A DNA stretch of 64,000 nucleotides from Flavobacteriales bacterium (GTDB lineage Bacteria; Bacteroidota; Bacteroidia; Flavobacteriales_D; Sanyastnellaceae): positions 124,001 to 188,000 of the forward strand of contig JAKVAX010000006.1 of NCBI GenBank assembly GCA_022447625.1, read 5' to 3'. Position numbers and translations under genes: made by a program. The number at the start of each line of letters is the position of its first letter. Position 1 is the first letter of the stretch. The notes below the pieces were generated by a model. That model was given only the letters and a program-made list of their open reading frames with translations, was not told where the DNA came from and did no database searches. This document shows, piece after piece, positions 40,605 to 47,046 of this stretch.

Positions 40605-42197
40605 TTAACCTCTTCGGGTTTTGATGACTTTGACCACTTTTCCGTTTTCGAAGATCATGTGCTCTTCTACTTGTCCGTTTTTCTCATTGTAAGTGATCCA
40701 CTTACCATGTCTCCGGTTGTTCTTGTACTCAGCTTCGATGAGCACTTGTCCACGGCGGTTGTAGGTTTTTGACAGGCCGTCGAGTTTTCCTTCGCTGTAT
40801 TCGCATTCGCGATTCGGTGAACCATTCGGGAAGTTATAAGTCCACTCTCCATCTGGGGTTCCGTCTTTGTATGATCCTTTGGTTTCGATGATGCCGTTTT
40901 CATTTCCCATCACCCACTCACCGGTACGATTGCCGTCTTGATTGTACTTTCCGGCTTCATGGAGTTGCCCGTTTTCATAACGGAAGTCCCATTCACCAAC
41001 CCGAAGGTCGCCTTTCCATTCTCCTGAATAGTTCTTGATTCCGTTAGGGTACCATCCTTCCCATTTGCCGTCGAGTTTCCCCATGGCATAGGAGCCTTTG
41101 TCTTTTGGGTTGCCGTTGTCAAACCAGCTTTCCCAGAGGCCATCTTCCTTATCGTCAGTGAAGGTTCCCGTCATGAGTTGGTTGCCATTTTCGAACCAAT
41201 ATTCCCAGATGCCGTTCTTCATCCCATTCTTGTAACTACCCTGTTTCCAGTCTTCACCAGTGATGTAATAATAGTGCCAGACGCCTTCCATTTGGCCTTG
41301 AACGTATTCACCTTCGTAGTGTACTTGTCCGTTTCCATAATAGTACTTCCATTCGCCTTCTTGTAAGTCGGCGTCGAAAGAGCCTTCCATATCTACGTTT
41401 CCGTCTTTAAAGTACCAGGTCCATTTTCGGGTTTTCTTTCCTGCTGCGTAGTTTCCTTTGACTTCAGTCGCTCCGCTCCGAAAATTTCTCAGGAGTTCAC
41501 CGTCGAGCATTCCGTTCTTGTAGTTTTCTATTTGCTCAAGCGTACCGCCGAAGTAGTTGGTTTTCCATTGACCGTCTTTCTTTCCTGCTGCGTAGCTTCC
41601 TTCTTGACGAAGGCTGCCGTCTTCAAAGTAGCCGGTGTATTTTCCGTTAGGAATGCCGTTCGCGAAAGTTGTTTCACTTTTTACGGGACCAGACTTGAAG
41701 AACATTGGGTACGTTCCGCTCCCATTCTCAATGAGTGTTTCTCCTTCCGCGTTAGCGAAATAAAGCACACGCTTCAGACTGTCAGTATATTCTTCAACCA
41801 GCTTTTTGTCGCCGTTGTCAAAATAGTAGTACCAATCACCCGTTTTGAAATCTGCTTTGTAGAAACCGTATTCGAGAAGCACGCTGTCAGGAGTGAGAAC
41901 ACGCATCACGCTATCCTGGAGACCTCGAATGAAATAACCCTCTGTTTCAATGATCCCGTTTTGATGGTAACGAATGGTAGGGCCATCAAGAACACCAAAC
42001 CAGTAAGTCGATTCTTCTTTCAGATTCCCGTCTTCATACCACCATTGCCACTTGCCGTGTTCGAGTCCTCTTTCGTAGAAGCCTTCGCTACGCTTTTGGC
42101 CATCATCATAGAAGTCAACGTAATGTTGCTTTTGAGCTATTCCGCCAATGGCGAATAAAAGAAGCAGGGAAGTCAGGATCGGTTTCAAATCTTGCAT
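40605..42197 (-). CDS. MORN/YwqK-type repeat protein, exported
   Basis: A 530-residue protein of about twenty tandem repeats of 22-24 residues with the pattern YxNGxxxxEGxYxxGxxxGxWxxY. Examples are FYDDGQKRSEGFYERGLEHG and YYGNGQVHYEGEYVQGQMEG. The N-terminal signal peptide (MQDLKPILTSLLLLFAIGGIAQ) indicates export. Databases often label these repeats antitoxin-like (YwqK) from one Bacillus gene; nothing here supports a toxin-antitoxin role. Structural or protein-binding function is more likely. A dispersed-motif copy reads ANAE at 41745-41760. A -7 box lies 4 bases before the start. Confidence 0.85.
   Translation of the reverse strand: MQDLKPILTSLLLLFAIGGIAQKQHYVDFYDDGQKRSEGFYERGLEHGKWQWWYEDGNLKEESTYWFGVLDGPTIRYHQNGIIETEGYFIRGLQDSVMRVLTPDSVLLEYGFYKADFKTGDWYYYFDNGDKKLVEEYTDSLKRVLYFANAEGETLIENGSGTYPMFFKSGPVKSETTFANGIPNGKYTGYFEDGSLRQEGSYAAGKKDGQWKTNYFGGTLEQIENYKNGMLDGELLRNFRSGATEVKGNYAAGKKTRKWTWYFKDGNVDMEGSFDADLQEGEWKYYYGNGQVHYEGEYVQGQMEGVWHYYYITGEDWKQGSYKNGMKNGIWEYWFENGNQLMTGTFTDDKEDGLWESWFDNGNPKDKGSYAMGKLDGKWEGWYPNGIKNYSGEWKGDLRVGEWDFRYENGQLHEAGKYNQDGNRTGEWVMGNENGIIETKGSYKDGTPDGEWTYNFPNGSPNRECEYSEGKLDGLSKTYNRRGQVLIEAEYKNNRRHGKWITYNEKNGQVEEHMIFENGKVVKVIKTRRG
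41745..41760 (-). repeat. Dispersed iterated motif, coding copy
   Basis: TTCCGCGTTAGCGAAA on the plus strand, read as ANAE in the MORN-repeat protein; one central base differs from the usual form. Confidence 0.7.
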
Positions 42198-42286: not shown

Positions 42287-42328
42287 CTGACTATGTACTA
42301 AAGACCAACAACTAACCACTAATTTGTA
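42287..42328. repeat. Heptad repeat tract E
   Basis: Six 7-base units CTGACTA, TGTACTA, AAGACCA, ACAACTA, ACCACTA, ATTTGTA directly upstream of the rimP -7 box. Confidence 0.7.
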
Positions 42329-42329
42329 C

Positions 42330-42337
42330 TATATTTG
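42330..42337 (+). promoter_or_regulatory. -7 box of the rimP-nusA-infB operon
   Basis: TATATTTG, an exact TAnnTTTG match, 62 bases before the rimP ATG, with a terminator-like hairpin between them. Confidence 0.65.
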
Positions 42338-42365
42338 CAGCGCAAAGGAGATGCTAAAACAAATG

Positions 42366-42390
42366 AAGAGGGGCGAGAGTCCCTCTTTTT
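42366..42390 (+). promoter_or_regulatory. Terminator-like hairpin in the rimP leader (attenuator candidate)
   Basis: Stem AAGAGGGGC (42366-42374) and GTCCCTCTT (42379-42387) closed by a GAGA tetraloop and followed by T residues, ending 9 bases before the rimP ATG. No gene upstream runs in this direction, so it can only act on transcripts started at the box at 42330. An AAAGGAG followed by ATG (42344-42353) lies between box and hairpin and could open a short leader frame overlapping rimP. Confidence 0.6.
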
Positions 42391-42399
42391 ATTACGCAC

Positions 42400-42870
42400 A
42401 TGATCACAAAAGACCAGATCGAACAGTTGTTGGAAGAAGGCTTGGGAGAAGGTCCGATCTTCGTTGTGAAGCTTGATGTTTCCGCAGGAAATGACATCAG
42501 AGTTTTGATTGATAACGACGAAGGGATTGCGATCTCTGATTGTGTGAAAGTAAGCCGAATGATCGAAGGTTCTTATGACCGAGATTTAGAAGATTTTTCC
42601 CTGAATGTATCTTCTCCTGGGGCGGATCAACCGCTTATGGTGAAGCGTCAATATGTGAAGAATGTGGGGAGAGGTCTCAAAGTGAAGACCACTGAAGGAT
42701 TGAAGATTGAAGGCACCTTGGAGGCAGCCGATGATGAAAGCATTGCGGTTGTTGTGCGTGAAAAGCGTCGAATTGAAGGCCGAAAGGCGAAAGAATGGGT
42801 AGAAGAAAAGCATACCATCGCTTATGCCGACATCGACAAGGCGACGGTTGTCATATCATTTAAAAAATAG
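42400..42870 (+). CDS. rimP: Ribosome maturation factor RimP
   Basis: A 156-residue protein needed for assembly of the 30S ribosomal subunit. The N-terminal domain has LDVSAGNDIRVLIDNDEGI, then VSRMIEGSYDRDLEDFSLNV and SSPGADQPL, the most conserved RimP segment; the C-terminal part is the Sm-like domain. It heads the classic rimP-nusA-infB operon, with nusA starting 3 bases after its stop. Confidence 0.95.
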   Translation: MITKDQIEQLLEEGLGEGPIFVVKLDVSAGNDIRVLIDNDEGIAISDCVKVSRMIEGSYDRDLEDFSLNVSSPGADQPLMVKRQYVKNVGRGLKVKTTEGLKIEGTLEAADDESIAVVVREKRRIEGRKAKEWVEEKHTIAYADIDKATVVISFKK

Positions 42871-42873
42871 AAT

Positions 42874-44109
42874 ATGAACGTTCTTAATCTGAATGAGTCG
42901 TTTCAGGATTTCAAAGAATTGAAGAACATCGATCGTGAGACGATGCTCGCGATCCTTGAAGACGTATTCCGCGCGATGATTATTAAGCGCTACGGAAGCG
43001 ATGAGAACTTTGATATCATCATCAACCCAGATAAGGGTGACCTTGAGATCTGGCGTAACCGCGAGATCGTGGCTGACGGAGAGGTTGAAGATGAGAACAT
43101 GGAAATCGAGCTTGCTGAAGCATTGAAGATCGAGGATGACTTCGAGATCGGAGAGGAAGTTTCAGAAGAGATCAAGATCGAGAAGTTCGGTCGCCGTAAT
43201 GTGTTGGCGATGCGTCAAAACTTGGTGAGCCGAATCCTAGAATTAGAAAAAGACCATATCTACGCGAAGTACAAAGAGCGCGTGGGAGATATCATCAGCG
43301 GTGAAGTTTACCAGATCTGGAAACGTGAAATGTTGGTGATTGATGATGAAGATAACGAGCTTGTGCTTCCTCGTCAAAACCAGATTCCTTCTGATTACTT
43401 CAAGAAAGGTGACACGGTACGTGCCGTAGTTGCTGAGGTAGATATGCGTAACAATACACCACGAATCATTCTTTCTCGCACAGCTCCAGAATTCCTTGAG
43501 CGCTTGTTCGAGCAGGAGGTGCCTGAGGTGTTTGACGGACTGATCACGATCAAGAAGATCGTGCGTGAGCCGGGTGAGCGTGCTAAAGTGGCGGTAGAGT
43601 CATACGATGATCGCATCGATCCAGTGGGAGCATGTGTCGGTATGAAAGGTGCCCGTATCCACAGCATCGTTCGTGAATTGAAAAATGAAAATATTGACGT
43701 GATCAACTTTACAGCGAATGAGCAGCTGTTGATCTCACGTGCACTGTCTCCAGCGAAAATTTCTTCGATCACGTTGGATAATGATAATATGAAAGCAGAT
43801 GTTTACCTCAAGCCAGACCAAGTTTCACTTGCGATTGGTAAAGGAGGGCATAACATTAAGCTTGCGAGTCGTTTGACAGGCTTTGAGATTGACGTTTACC
43901 GCGAGTCAGAAGCTGAATTGGATGACGTTGAACTGGAAGAATTCTCAGATGAAATCGAAGGATGGATCATCGATGCCTTCAAGGAGATTGGTTGCGACAC
44001 AGCGCGCAGCGTACTTGACTTGGAAGAAGATGATCTAGCGAAGCGTACAGACCTCGAGATCGAAACGATCCGTGACGTACGACGTATCCTCCGTTCTGAG
44101 TTCGAATAA
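42874..44109 (+). CDS. nusA: Transcription termination/antitermination factor NusA
   Basis: A 411-residue RNA-polymerase-binding factor. The N-terminal domain (about 1-125) binds polymerase, an S1 domain covers about 130-200 (GDIISGEVYQIWKREML), and KH1 and KH2 follow (VGACVGMKGARIHSIVREL, then VSLAIGKGGHNIKLASRL). A short acidic C-terminal extension includes a helix-hairpin-helix-like piece (DLAKRTDLEIETIRDV). In other bacteria NusA influences its own operon, which makes the leader hairpin upstream of rimP notable. Confidence 0.96.
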   Translation: MNVLNLNESFQDFKELKNIDRETMLAILEDVFRAMIIKRYGSDENFDIIINPDKGDLEIWRNREIVADGEVEDENMEIELAEALKIEDDFEIGEEVSEEIKIEKFGRRNVLAMRQNLVSRILELEKDHIYAKYKERVGDIISGEVYQIWKREMLVIDDEDNELVLPRQNQIPSDYFKKGDTVRAVVAEVDMRNNTPRIILSRTAPEFLERLFEQEVPEVFDGLITIKKIVREPGERAKVAVESYDDRIDPVGACVGMKGARIHSIVRELKNENIDVINFTANEQLLISRALSPAKISSITLDNDNMKADVYLKPDQVSLAIGKGGHNIKLASRLTGFEIDVYRESEAELDDVELEEFSDEIEGWIIDAFKEIGCDTARSVLDLEEDDLAKRTDLEIETIRDVRRILRSEFE

Positions 44110-44154: not shown

Positions 44155-47046
44155 ATGACCGAAGTAAAGAAACCGGTACGTTTAAGTAAAGTCGCGAAAG
44201 AATTCAATGTCGGGATAAGTACGATCGTTGATTTCCTCGGAGATAAGGGTATTGAGGTTGATAGCAACCCAAATACCAAGATCGATGGGGCAACATACGG
44301 CGTGATTCGTGATGAATTCGCAGACGAGAAAATGCTCAAAGAGAAATCGAAGAGTGTGTCTCGTTCCCGCTCTGAGCGTGAGACTATTACGCTAGAGTCA
44401 AGCAAGAAGGAGAAGGATAAGCCCGAAGAAGAAGAGTTCGAGATCGACCTGTCTTCTTTCCAGAAAAGTGAAACTCCCGAAGCTAAGAAAGAGGAAGCCC
44501 CTGCTCCTGCACCGGAAGCAGAGAAGATTCCTGAGCCAGAGCCAGAGCCAGCTCCAGAGCCGACTCCTGAACCAGAACCTGCCCCCGTTGCTGAAGAGGT
44601 GAAAGAGGAGCCGAAAGCAGAAGCACCAGCGCCTGAGGCGAAAGAAGAACCTCCCGCTGCCAAACAAGAAGCGCCAGCGAAGGAGGAGGAAAAGACCGGA
44701 CCAAAAGTAGTTGGGAAGGTAGATCTTGATAGCATCGCTCCTAAGAAGAAGCCAGCTCCTAAGAAGGACAAGGAAGAGAAGAAAGTGGCACCGGCGGAAA
44801 AGCCAGCTGCTAAGAAGGAGCCTGCACCAAAAGCGCCAGCTGTAAAGCCAGCAGCAGAGGAAAAGCCTGTGCCAGAAAAGAAGAAGCCTGAGATTGTACG
44901 CGCTGAAGCGAAGAAACTCACGGGTCCTACAGTAGTGGGTAAGATTGAGCTTCCGGTTGAAAAGCCGAAGAAGAAGCCCGTAGCTTCATCAACTGATGAC
45001 GACCTGCGCAAGAAGCGCAAGCGTAAGCGTATCTCTAAGGTAGATGTCAATAAACCAGGCCAAGGTGGTGGCGGAAACCGTCGTGGTGGAAACCAACGTG
45101 GAGGAAACCAACGCGGAGGCAATCGCCGAGGTGATAAGCCAGAGATTTCCGATAAGGATATCCAGAAAGAAATCAAGGAGACACTTGCTCGTCTGAGCGG
45201 TGGTGGTAAATCGAAGTCTTCTAAGATGCGTCGTGCGAAACGTGATGCAGCCGCAGAACGACGCGAAGAAGAACAGCAGAGACTACAGGAAGAGTCAACA
45301 ATCTTGAAACTGACGGAATTCGTAACAGTTTCCGAGTTGGCTAATATGATGTCAACGAGCGTGAACGATGTGATTTCAGCATGTATGTCGCTCGGTATCA
45401 TGGTGTCTATCAACCAGCGTCTTGATGGTGAAACCATCTCCATCATCGCAGAAGAATTCGGCTACGAAGCAGAATTCGTTGCTGCTGATGTACAGGATGC
45501 TATTCAAGAGGAAGTTGATGCTCCTGTAGATCTACTTGATCGTCCGCCGATTATTACGGTGATGGGTCACGTTGACCACGGTAAGACATCCTTGCTTGAC
45601 CACATCCGTAAAGCGAACGTGATTGCCGGTGAGGCCGGAGGAATCACCCAGCATATTGGAGCGTACAACGTTGAGTTGTCTACAGGTAAGACCATTACCT
45701 TTCTTGATACACCGGGTCACGAGGCCTTTACAGCTATGCGTGCACGTGGTGCGCAAGTAACAGACCTTGCGATCATCGTGATCGCGGCAGATGACTCTGT
45801 GATGCCACAAACGATCGAGGCGATCAATCACGCGCAAGCGGCGGAGATCCCAATGGTCTTTGCTTTCAATAAGATCGATAAGCCAGGCGCTAACGCGGAT
45901 AAGATTCGTGAAGAGCTGTCTACTATGAATATCCTCGTAGAAGACTGGGGTGGAACGTACCAAGCCCACGAAATTTCTGCGAAGAACGGTGTTGGAATCG
46001 ATGAGCTACTCGAGAAAGTATTGCTTGAAGCAGAACTTCTTGAACTCAAAGCCAACCCAGCAAAACGTGCCGTAGGTACCATCATCGAATCGTCGCTTGA
46101 TAAAGGACGAGGATACGTAAGTACACTTCTTGTTGAAGGTGGTACACTACGCGTAGGTGATGCTGTATTGGCAGGTCAGTACTCAGGACGTGTGAAAGCG
46201 ATGTTCAATGAACGTGGTAATCGCATTGACGAGGCTGGGCCATCTATGCCGGTATCGATGCTTGGTCTCTCGGGAGCAGCAGCGACCGGTGATAAGTTCC
46301 ACGTACTCGAAGATGAGAAGGAAGCTCGTGGAATCGCTGTGAAACGCCAGCAACTGCAGCGTGAGCAAGGTGTTCGTACACAACGACACATTACCATCGA
46401 AGAGATCGGACGACGTATTGCGATTGGAGAATTCAAGGAATTGAACTTGATTGTGAAAGGTGACGTTGATGGATCGATCGAAGCCTTGAGTGATTCCCTA
46501 CAGAAACTCTCAACAGAGAAGATTCAAGTGAATATTATTCACAAGGCCGTAGGTCAGATCTCAGAGAGCGATGTACTCCTCGCTTCTGCGTCAGACGCGA
46601 TCGTGATTGGTTTCCAAGTTCGTCCTTCAGCTGGAGCACGTAAACTTGCTGAAACAGAAGAGATCCAAATCCGTCTTTACTCTGTAATCTACAAGGCGAT
46701 CGAAGAAATGAAAGAAGCCATGGAAGGCATGCTTTCAGCGAAGATTGAAGAGAAAGTTACAGGTACATGTGAAGTGCGTGAGACCTTCAAAATCTCGAAA
46801 GTAGGTACCATTGCTGGATGTTTCGTCTTGGACGGAAAACTCAACCGCAACAGCAATGTGCGCGTGATCCGTGATGGTATCGTGATCTACACTGGACTAC
46901 TAGGATCACTGAAGCGTTTCAAAGACGATGTGAAAGAAGTGACCAAAGGTTACGAGTGTGGTCTGAACGTAGACAAGTTCAACGATATCAAAGTGGGAGA
47001 CCACATCGAAGCATACGAAGAAGTCGAAGTGAAGCAGAAGCTATAA
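44155..47046 (+). CDS. infB: Translation initiation factor IF-2
   Basis: A 963-residue GTPase that brings initiator tRNA to the ribosome. Residues 1-60 form the IF2N module ([20 protein letters not shown]). A long low-complexity linker rich in Lys, Glu, Pro and Ala runs from about 85 to 350, with a [12 protein letters not shown] stretch near 310. The G domain starts near residue 471 ([12 protein letters not shown]), with DTPGHEAF and NKIDKPG, followed by domains II, III and IV. The biased linker composition creates a long meaningless open frame on the other strand. A terminator follows. Confidence 0.97.

Follow-up and report, generated by a model that had tools for sequence, protein, structure and literature searches.

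The rimP-leader described by Naville and Gautheret in 2010 was termed "the most ubiquitous transcription attenuator" and was reported in the majority of species (PMC2965389). The published element is a short terminator hairpin with a G-rich 5' arm, a C-rich 3' arm, and a T stretch, located upstream of rimP-nusA-infB at a distance of 4-130 nt from the gene, with no antiterminator visible in its general form (PMC2965389). Feedback by NusA was proposed for this leader in general, and the text names Firmicutes and Gammaproteobacteria, while words beginning with Bacteroid or Flavobacteri are absent from its main text (PMC2965389). For B. subtilis, NusA is reported to control its own synthesis through intrinsic termination that it stimulates in the 5' leader of this operon (PMC12288461), a leader of 180 nt (PMC2965389). 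The E. coli metY-nusA-infB leader, which belongs to the same operon, features the terminators t1 and t2 upstream of rimP (PMC6511841). A transcriptome study of F. psychrophilum reported a structured 5' element upstream of rimP that has no Rfam hit and is said to be present in other Flavobacteriaceae genera, and the section describing it assigns no mechanism to the element (PMC9723704). The main texts of two B. thetaiotaomicron atlases do not mention rimP or nusA (PMC7366714, PMC10994844), and there was no fuller account of a rimP leader element in Bacteroidota among the matches listed by a literature search.

The window analyzed here is a stretch of 64,000 nucleotides from a Flavobacteriales genome of 3.9 Mb, and it carries a terminator-like hairpin in the leader of rimP-nusA-infB. 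The hairpin is followed by a T stretch and stands 12 nt before the rimP ATG with no visible antiterminator, as in the published rimP-leader. The published core is GGGc(...)gCCC (PMC2965389), whereas many Bacteroidia have GAGGGGAC(...)GTCCCCTC and the window has GAGGGGC GAGA GTCCCTC. The central part of the window's stem, GGGGC GAGA GUCCC, has the c-g closing pair and a run of G-C pairs interrupted by one G-U pair, and many relatives have GGGGAC...GUCCCC. As in the B. subtilis system (PMC12288461), the nusA operon has a terminator-like hairpin in its leader, and this hairpin is conserved in relatives of the window. The stem in the window ends 50 nt after the -7 box, in contrast to the leader of 180 nt in B. 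subtilis (PMC2965389). The F. psychrophilum element (PMC9723704) is a structured leader of the same gene in the same phylum and, compared by description, it is likely the same hairpin. An attenuator of this kind is already known; what is new here is its spread across the phylum, the covariation of its stem, and its promoter-anchored spacing. Comparison of sequences suggests that the hairpin is probably a promoter-proximal premature terminator (attenuator) of rimP-nusA-infB, most likely under negative feedback by NusA. On this reading, an attenuator that is known but little tested, and that belongs to an operon central to transcription and translation, also occurs in a phylum whose promoters are unusual.

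The Rfam rimP family (RF01770) is a model of 102 positions that matches only E. coli among 14 control genomes. At its gathering cut-off of 47 bits none of 99 Bacteroidia genomes passes, the window has no match to it, and the host genome has a weak match on another contig. A search of the whole 64-kb window with Rfam gave no match at the gathering threshold, so a known Rfam riboswitch or leader family was rejected as an explanation; the three matches in the leader itself have E values of 5 to 10. The consensus with covariation reported below is not covered by the Rfam rimP model.

Organization of the locus

The features of the locus are collected in Table 1. A preliminary description of this DNA had placed a hairpin between the -7 box and the rimP ATG and an upstream neighbor running the opposite way, and the sequence agrees with both, including the coordinates, stem, and loop of the hairpin. 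The leader start was placed using a spacing of ~6 nt between the -7 box and the start of transcription, which is presumably the distance that applies here. A transcript from this box would include the hairpin. No -33 element was found; the sole TTTG in 42291-42330 is located at 42323, 3 nt ahead of the -7 box. The closest NusA proteins from named records among the matches listed are those of a Cryomorphaceae and a Flavobacteriales metagenome assembly with 86% identity, a set of matches from which the window's own or very near records may be missing.

Table 1. Features of the rimP-nusA-infB leader and its surroundings in the window
Feature	Position	Strand	Basis or remark
MORN_2-repeat protein, 530 aa, divergent from rimP	40605-42197	minus	Pfam
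-7 promoter element TATATTTG	42330..42337	+	Perfect TAnnTTTG, consensus of the Bacteroidota primary sigma factor (PMC7366714)
Predicted rimP leader, ~57 nt	42343..42399	+	Start placed from the -7 box
AAAGGAG (42344-42350) abutting ATG (42351)	42344..42353	+	Judged a non-functional leader-peptide start
Terminator-like hairpin, 9-pair stem, GAGA loop	42366..42387	+	Sequence, folding, counterparts and pair changes in relatives; 5' arm AAGAGGGGC 42366-42374, loop GAGA 42375-42378, 3' arm GTCCCTCTT 42379-42387
U tract TTTTTATT	42386..42393	+	First two T also close the stem
rimP	42400..42870	+	Pfam RimP_N, DUF150_C; ATG at 42400
nusA	42874..44109	+	Pfam N-terminal, S1 and KH domains
infB (IF-2)	44155..47046	+	Pfam

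Structure and stability of the hairpin

The stem consists of eight Watson-Crick pairs and one G-U pair. When a tenth pair (G-U) is included, the isolated hairpin has a folding energy of -15.8 kcal/mol with z = -4.55, and 0 of 200 shuffled sequences are equally stable. The 68-nt leader that contains the hairpin has z = -2.86 with 3 of 200 shuffles equally stable. After the full ten-pair stem, four of the next eight bases on the plus strand are T, which makes a moderate U tract. A generic terminator scan listed the hairpin on the minus strand only and not on the plus strand, where the tract following the full stem is only moderately T-rich. The same scan found 2 terminator-like sites in a 2-kb stretch versus 2.2 in shuffled sequences, so there is no excess.

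PMC2965389 describes regulatory terminators as less stable. Of 38 hairpins found at the 3' ends of genes in the same genome, 28 are more stable than the stem in the window (-14.3). The U tracts of leaders are not weaker than those at 3' ends (mean of 5.39 versus 5.29 T in 7), and a weak terminator is therefore indicated by the energy of the stem alone.

The rarity of the arrangement was determined in 464 kb, about 12% of the host genome, with genes called by a simple ORF rule. The detector requires a single hairpin of at least 5 pairs, with -8 kcal/mol or better, that ends at a 7-base stretch containing 5 or more T. Leaders of divergent genes feature a hairpin and T tract in 3 of 84 cases, rimP among the 3, and only the rimP leader (1/84) also has a -7 box 5-60 nt ahead of them. 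Leaders behind a co-directional gene feature a hairpin in 19 of 107 cases, 0 of which have a -7 box ahead. An alternative first detector gave 3/84 divergent and 21/107 co-directional leaders, with rimP again as the single boxed case, and shuffled leaders of the class have a hairpin and T tract in 12 of 450 cases. The hairpin that follows the -7 box in the rimP leader is not a product of chance.

Distribution in the Bacteroidota

Relatives were collected in several samples. The family sample consisted of 114 genomes searched, 105 of which have NusA, and 70 loci were read. The phylum sample of 148 genomes provided 28 new loci and 80 sequence stretches, and a further sample of rimP leaders provided 80 named loci. 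The class sample consisted of 99 genomes, 98 with NusA, and the 98 that were read comprise 27 new loci, 58 stretches, and 13 earlier loci. Seven loci were dropped, 5 for lack of a RimP match and 2 because their upstream sequence was short. For lack of a RimP match, 8 of the 98 genomes of the class-wide draw were also dropped. Identical leaders were merged in the pooled count.

Conservation of the hairpin upstream of rimP in relatives had been proposed as a check in the preliminary description, and it is evident in the relatives sampled. A hairpin and T tract precede rimP in 220 of 239 distinct Bacteroidia leaders, and 196 of these 220 have a -7 box no more than 60 nt upstream of the stem. In the other classes of the phylum 67 of 70 leaders have a hairpin and T tract; for these leaders the promoter was not located and some hairpins are 80-170 nt from rimP, so that a part of the 67 may be terminators of the preceding gene. 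The class-wide draw gives the fairer picture, because the larger sums include near-identical leaders from a single genus as individual cases. This draw features a hairpin and T tract in 79/90 genomes and 45/50 families, with 3 of the 79 (L309, L314, and L347) scoring through a different hairpin that is located 82-109 nt upstream. Within the family of the window, the hairpin and T tract are present in 60 of 68 distinct leaders. The main exception there is the genus g21, in which 1 of 8 leaders is over the threshold and a shorter GGGGC core remains.

The hairpin could in principle terminate the transcript of an upstream gene. In the window this was rejected, as the neighbor is divergent and the hairpin comes after the promoter. 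The upstream neighbors of 246 distinct leaders, hairpin-less leaders included, are divergent in 142 cases and co-directional in 104 by a crude ORF call, and this mixed direction in relatives disfavors the neighbor-terminator reading in general. The earlier assignment of the hairpin to the operon's own leader is in line with its counterparts upstream of rimP throughout the phylum and with the divergent neighbor in the window.

The detector finds no leader hairpin in five Bacteroidia genomes from three families, L361 (f55), L368 and L369 (f76), and L370 and L371 (f69). In f69 and f76 rimP begins soon after a -7-like box, and these genomes provide natural losses for comparison. In six genomes of the class-wide draw (L102, L308, L321, L327, L330, and L343) the stem is retained but the U tract is poor, for example CTTCATTT, and three of them (L321, L327, and L330) belong to family f36. 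These genomes speak against a plain intrinsic terminator and are candidates for factor-dependent termination, such as weak terminators that depend on NusA, or for a different function of the stem.

In two loci, L027 (genome G031) and L197, rimP is located ~1.1 kb before nusA and a small extra ORF, beginning MHQFEKLHIWQEG as judged by eye, lies between them. This ORF is presumably similar to four-helix-bundle proteins of the kind found in rRNA intervening sequences. The genome G031 retains the leader hairpin.

Covariation of the stem and sequence models

The preliminary description held that a lack of compensatory conservation in the stem would refute its proposal; compensatory changes are present in two alignments, and this refutation fails. 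The first is a set of 14 rows with equal stem-loop length, taken from the 19 distinct leaders that families f6, f8, and f9 provided, in which the aligner displaced nothing but the flanks of a single row. Two-sided changes occur at 4 of 8 pairs and 100% of cells pair, a percentage that 0 of 500 shuffles reach; two related rows account for all four two-sided changes, which may reflect a single event. The second alignment contains 52 distinct class-wide rows (from 76 matches, 53 of which are sense rows), with two-sided changes at 6 of 8 pairs and 99.5% of cells pairing in rows that were fitted to the model and so lean towards it. Sliding the partners by 1-3 columns leaves 0-3 two-sided pairs versus 6 in the same rows. 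The third and fourth pairs from the stem base are G-C in 52 of 52 rows, and because these two pairs are invariant the stem may be held in part by sequence as well as by pairing. A MAFFT alignment of 133 of 134 hairpins, which excluded L234 where the strongest hairpin is a different one, was not used for pair counts because the varying loop length put the 5' arms out of register.

The stems of other classes differ from those of the Bacteroidia, for example GTGGGG...CCCCAC in f15 and TAGCCCG...CGGGCTA in f12 and f17. The window's stem is a shorter variant than that of covariance model R1, which was built from the 14 Flavobacteriaceae-type rows; R1 does not recover the window's hairpin and has two matches in the window's genome on other contigs. 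With E of no more than 0.1, R1 finds a match in 52 of 99 genomes, and since only 12 of the 20 best matches are at rimP, the sequence of the hairpin alone is not diagnostic. An exact pattern for the family gave 108 matches in 73 of 114 genomes. Of these, 64 are located upstream of nusA on its strand, 7 correspond to this site read in reverse, and 37 are in other places, including 3 in genomes that have no NusA match. In the rimP leaders of seven genomes (G024, G050, G051, G056, G059, G062, and G066) the exact hairpin pattern with TTT fits both strands, and there the hairpin may also stop antisense transcription.

Position of the hairpin relative to promoter and gene

The stem ends at a median of 47 nt after the -7 box with a standard deviation of 5.3 nt in 196 Bacteroidia leaders. 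In the same leaders, the spacing between the stem and the first RimP residue, which was placed by homology, has a standard deviation of 15.4 nt. Because the nearest TAnnTTTG in a span of 60 nt was used as the box, the scatter of the first distance has an upper limit, yet distances distributed evenly over the span would scatter far more. The tight distance to the promoter and the loose distance to the gene are more in keeping with a signal for transcription than with one for translation. This bears on whether the hairpin acts mainly after transcription, on translation initiation or on the stability of the 5' end of the mRNA. Its position 12 nt before the rimP ATG in the window and the six genomes with a stem and a poor U tract are compatible with such a role, however, the looser spacing to rimP and the 220 of 239 Bacteroidia leaders that pass a detector demanding T-rich ends make it improbable.

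The segment between the box and the stem is 14-31 nt (5-95%), which leaves no room for a large sensor. A promoter followed by a terminator-like end is also the anatomy of a short RNA, and the terminated leader of ~45-50 nt could be a small RNA acting in trans. This is very doubtful, as the segment before the stem varies between most clades when judged by eye, although g12 and g13 share a stretch.

The preliminary description further suggested that AAAGGAG and the ATG ahead of the hairpin could start a leader peptide, and 17 of 196 leaders have a short ORF with its stop ahead of the stem. This part of the description did not hold. There is zero spacing between AAAGGAG and the ATG in the window, the frame (42324-42476) crosses the hairpin and overlaps rimP out of frame, and 142 of 196 leaders have no ATG between box and stem, which leaves only 54 with one. 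Leader-peptide attenuation was rejected on the out-of-frame overlap and the scarcity of the ATG, and its probability is close to nil.

Proposed mechanism

In the preferred reading, attenuation with NusA feedback, which is of the type already offered in the preliminary description, RNA polymerase would start ~6 nt past the -7 box and make roughly 45-50 nt of RNA. A fraction of the complexes would terminate at the U tract, and the remainder would read through into rimP-nusA-infB. More NusA on the early elongation complex would lead to more termination and therefore to less NusA. Termination, its efficiency, and NusA as the signal are deduced from an element whose counterparts, covariation, and promoter distance come from sequence comparison. 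With a large sensor, a general antiterminator, and a leader peptide all disfavored, the reading left is a premature terminator with a strength that would depend on the elongation complex. NusA is the natural candidate for the signal because it is encoded by the second gene of the operon, with its N-terminal, S1, and KH domains present, and self-regulation by NusA is plausible by analogy with the B. subtilis precedent.

There is an appreciable though minor chance that the attenuator is real and that its signal is not NusA. Readthrough could be a constant fraction, or the signal could be NusG, RimP, temperature, or nucleotide levels. The short leader, without a general antiterminator or large sensor, suits such a reading, and conservation is silent on the signal. 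Against it, the operon encodes NusA and the precedent in B. subtilis is NusA itself (PMC12288461). Additionally, rimP is the only boxed hairpin leader in the 464 kb (about 12% of the genome) that was covered, which fits feedback specific to this operon. Feedback by NusA becomes directly testable in Bacteroidota, and the rimP leaders are a natural series of promoter-proximal terminators.

A more specific version of NusA feedback, which is speculative and rather unlikely, is that in Bacteroidia the hairpin reads whether NusA has joined the polymerase as sigma leaves. If this is true, only complexes with NusA bound in the first 45-50 nt would terminate and the hairpin, unlike the long leader of B. 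subtilis, would directly sense free NusA as the polymerase escapes from the promoter.

An antiterminator was sought as pairing of the 5' segment with the 5' arm of the stem, and there is no general pairing of this kind in 196 leaders, with a mean longest run of 3.44 versus 3.38 in shuffled sequences. A complementary run of at least 6 is present in 23 leaders versus 8 shuffled ones, and antitermination in some clades is conceivable from this excess. In the window's genus the 5' segment has no complement of 6 or more.

Among the relatives, eight leaders of g12 and g13 (L013, L014, L015, L017, L022, L028, L037, and L038) share, by eye, the stretch CGCTTT-GGCACTGA between the -7 box and the hairpin. 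In g12 this stretch can pair 6 bases with the 5' arm.
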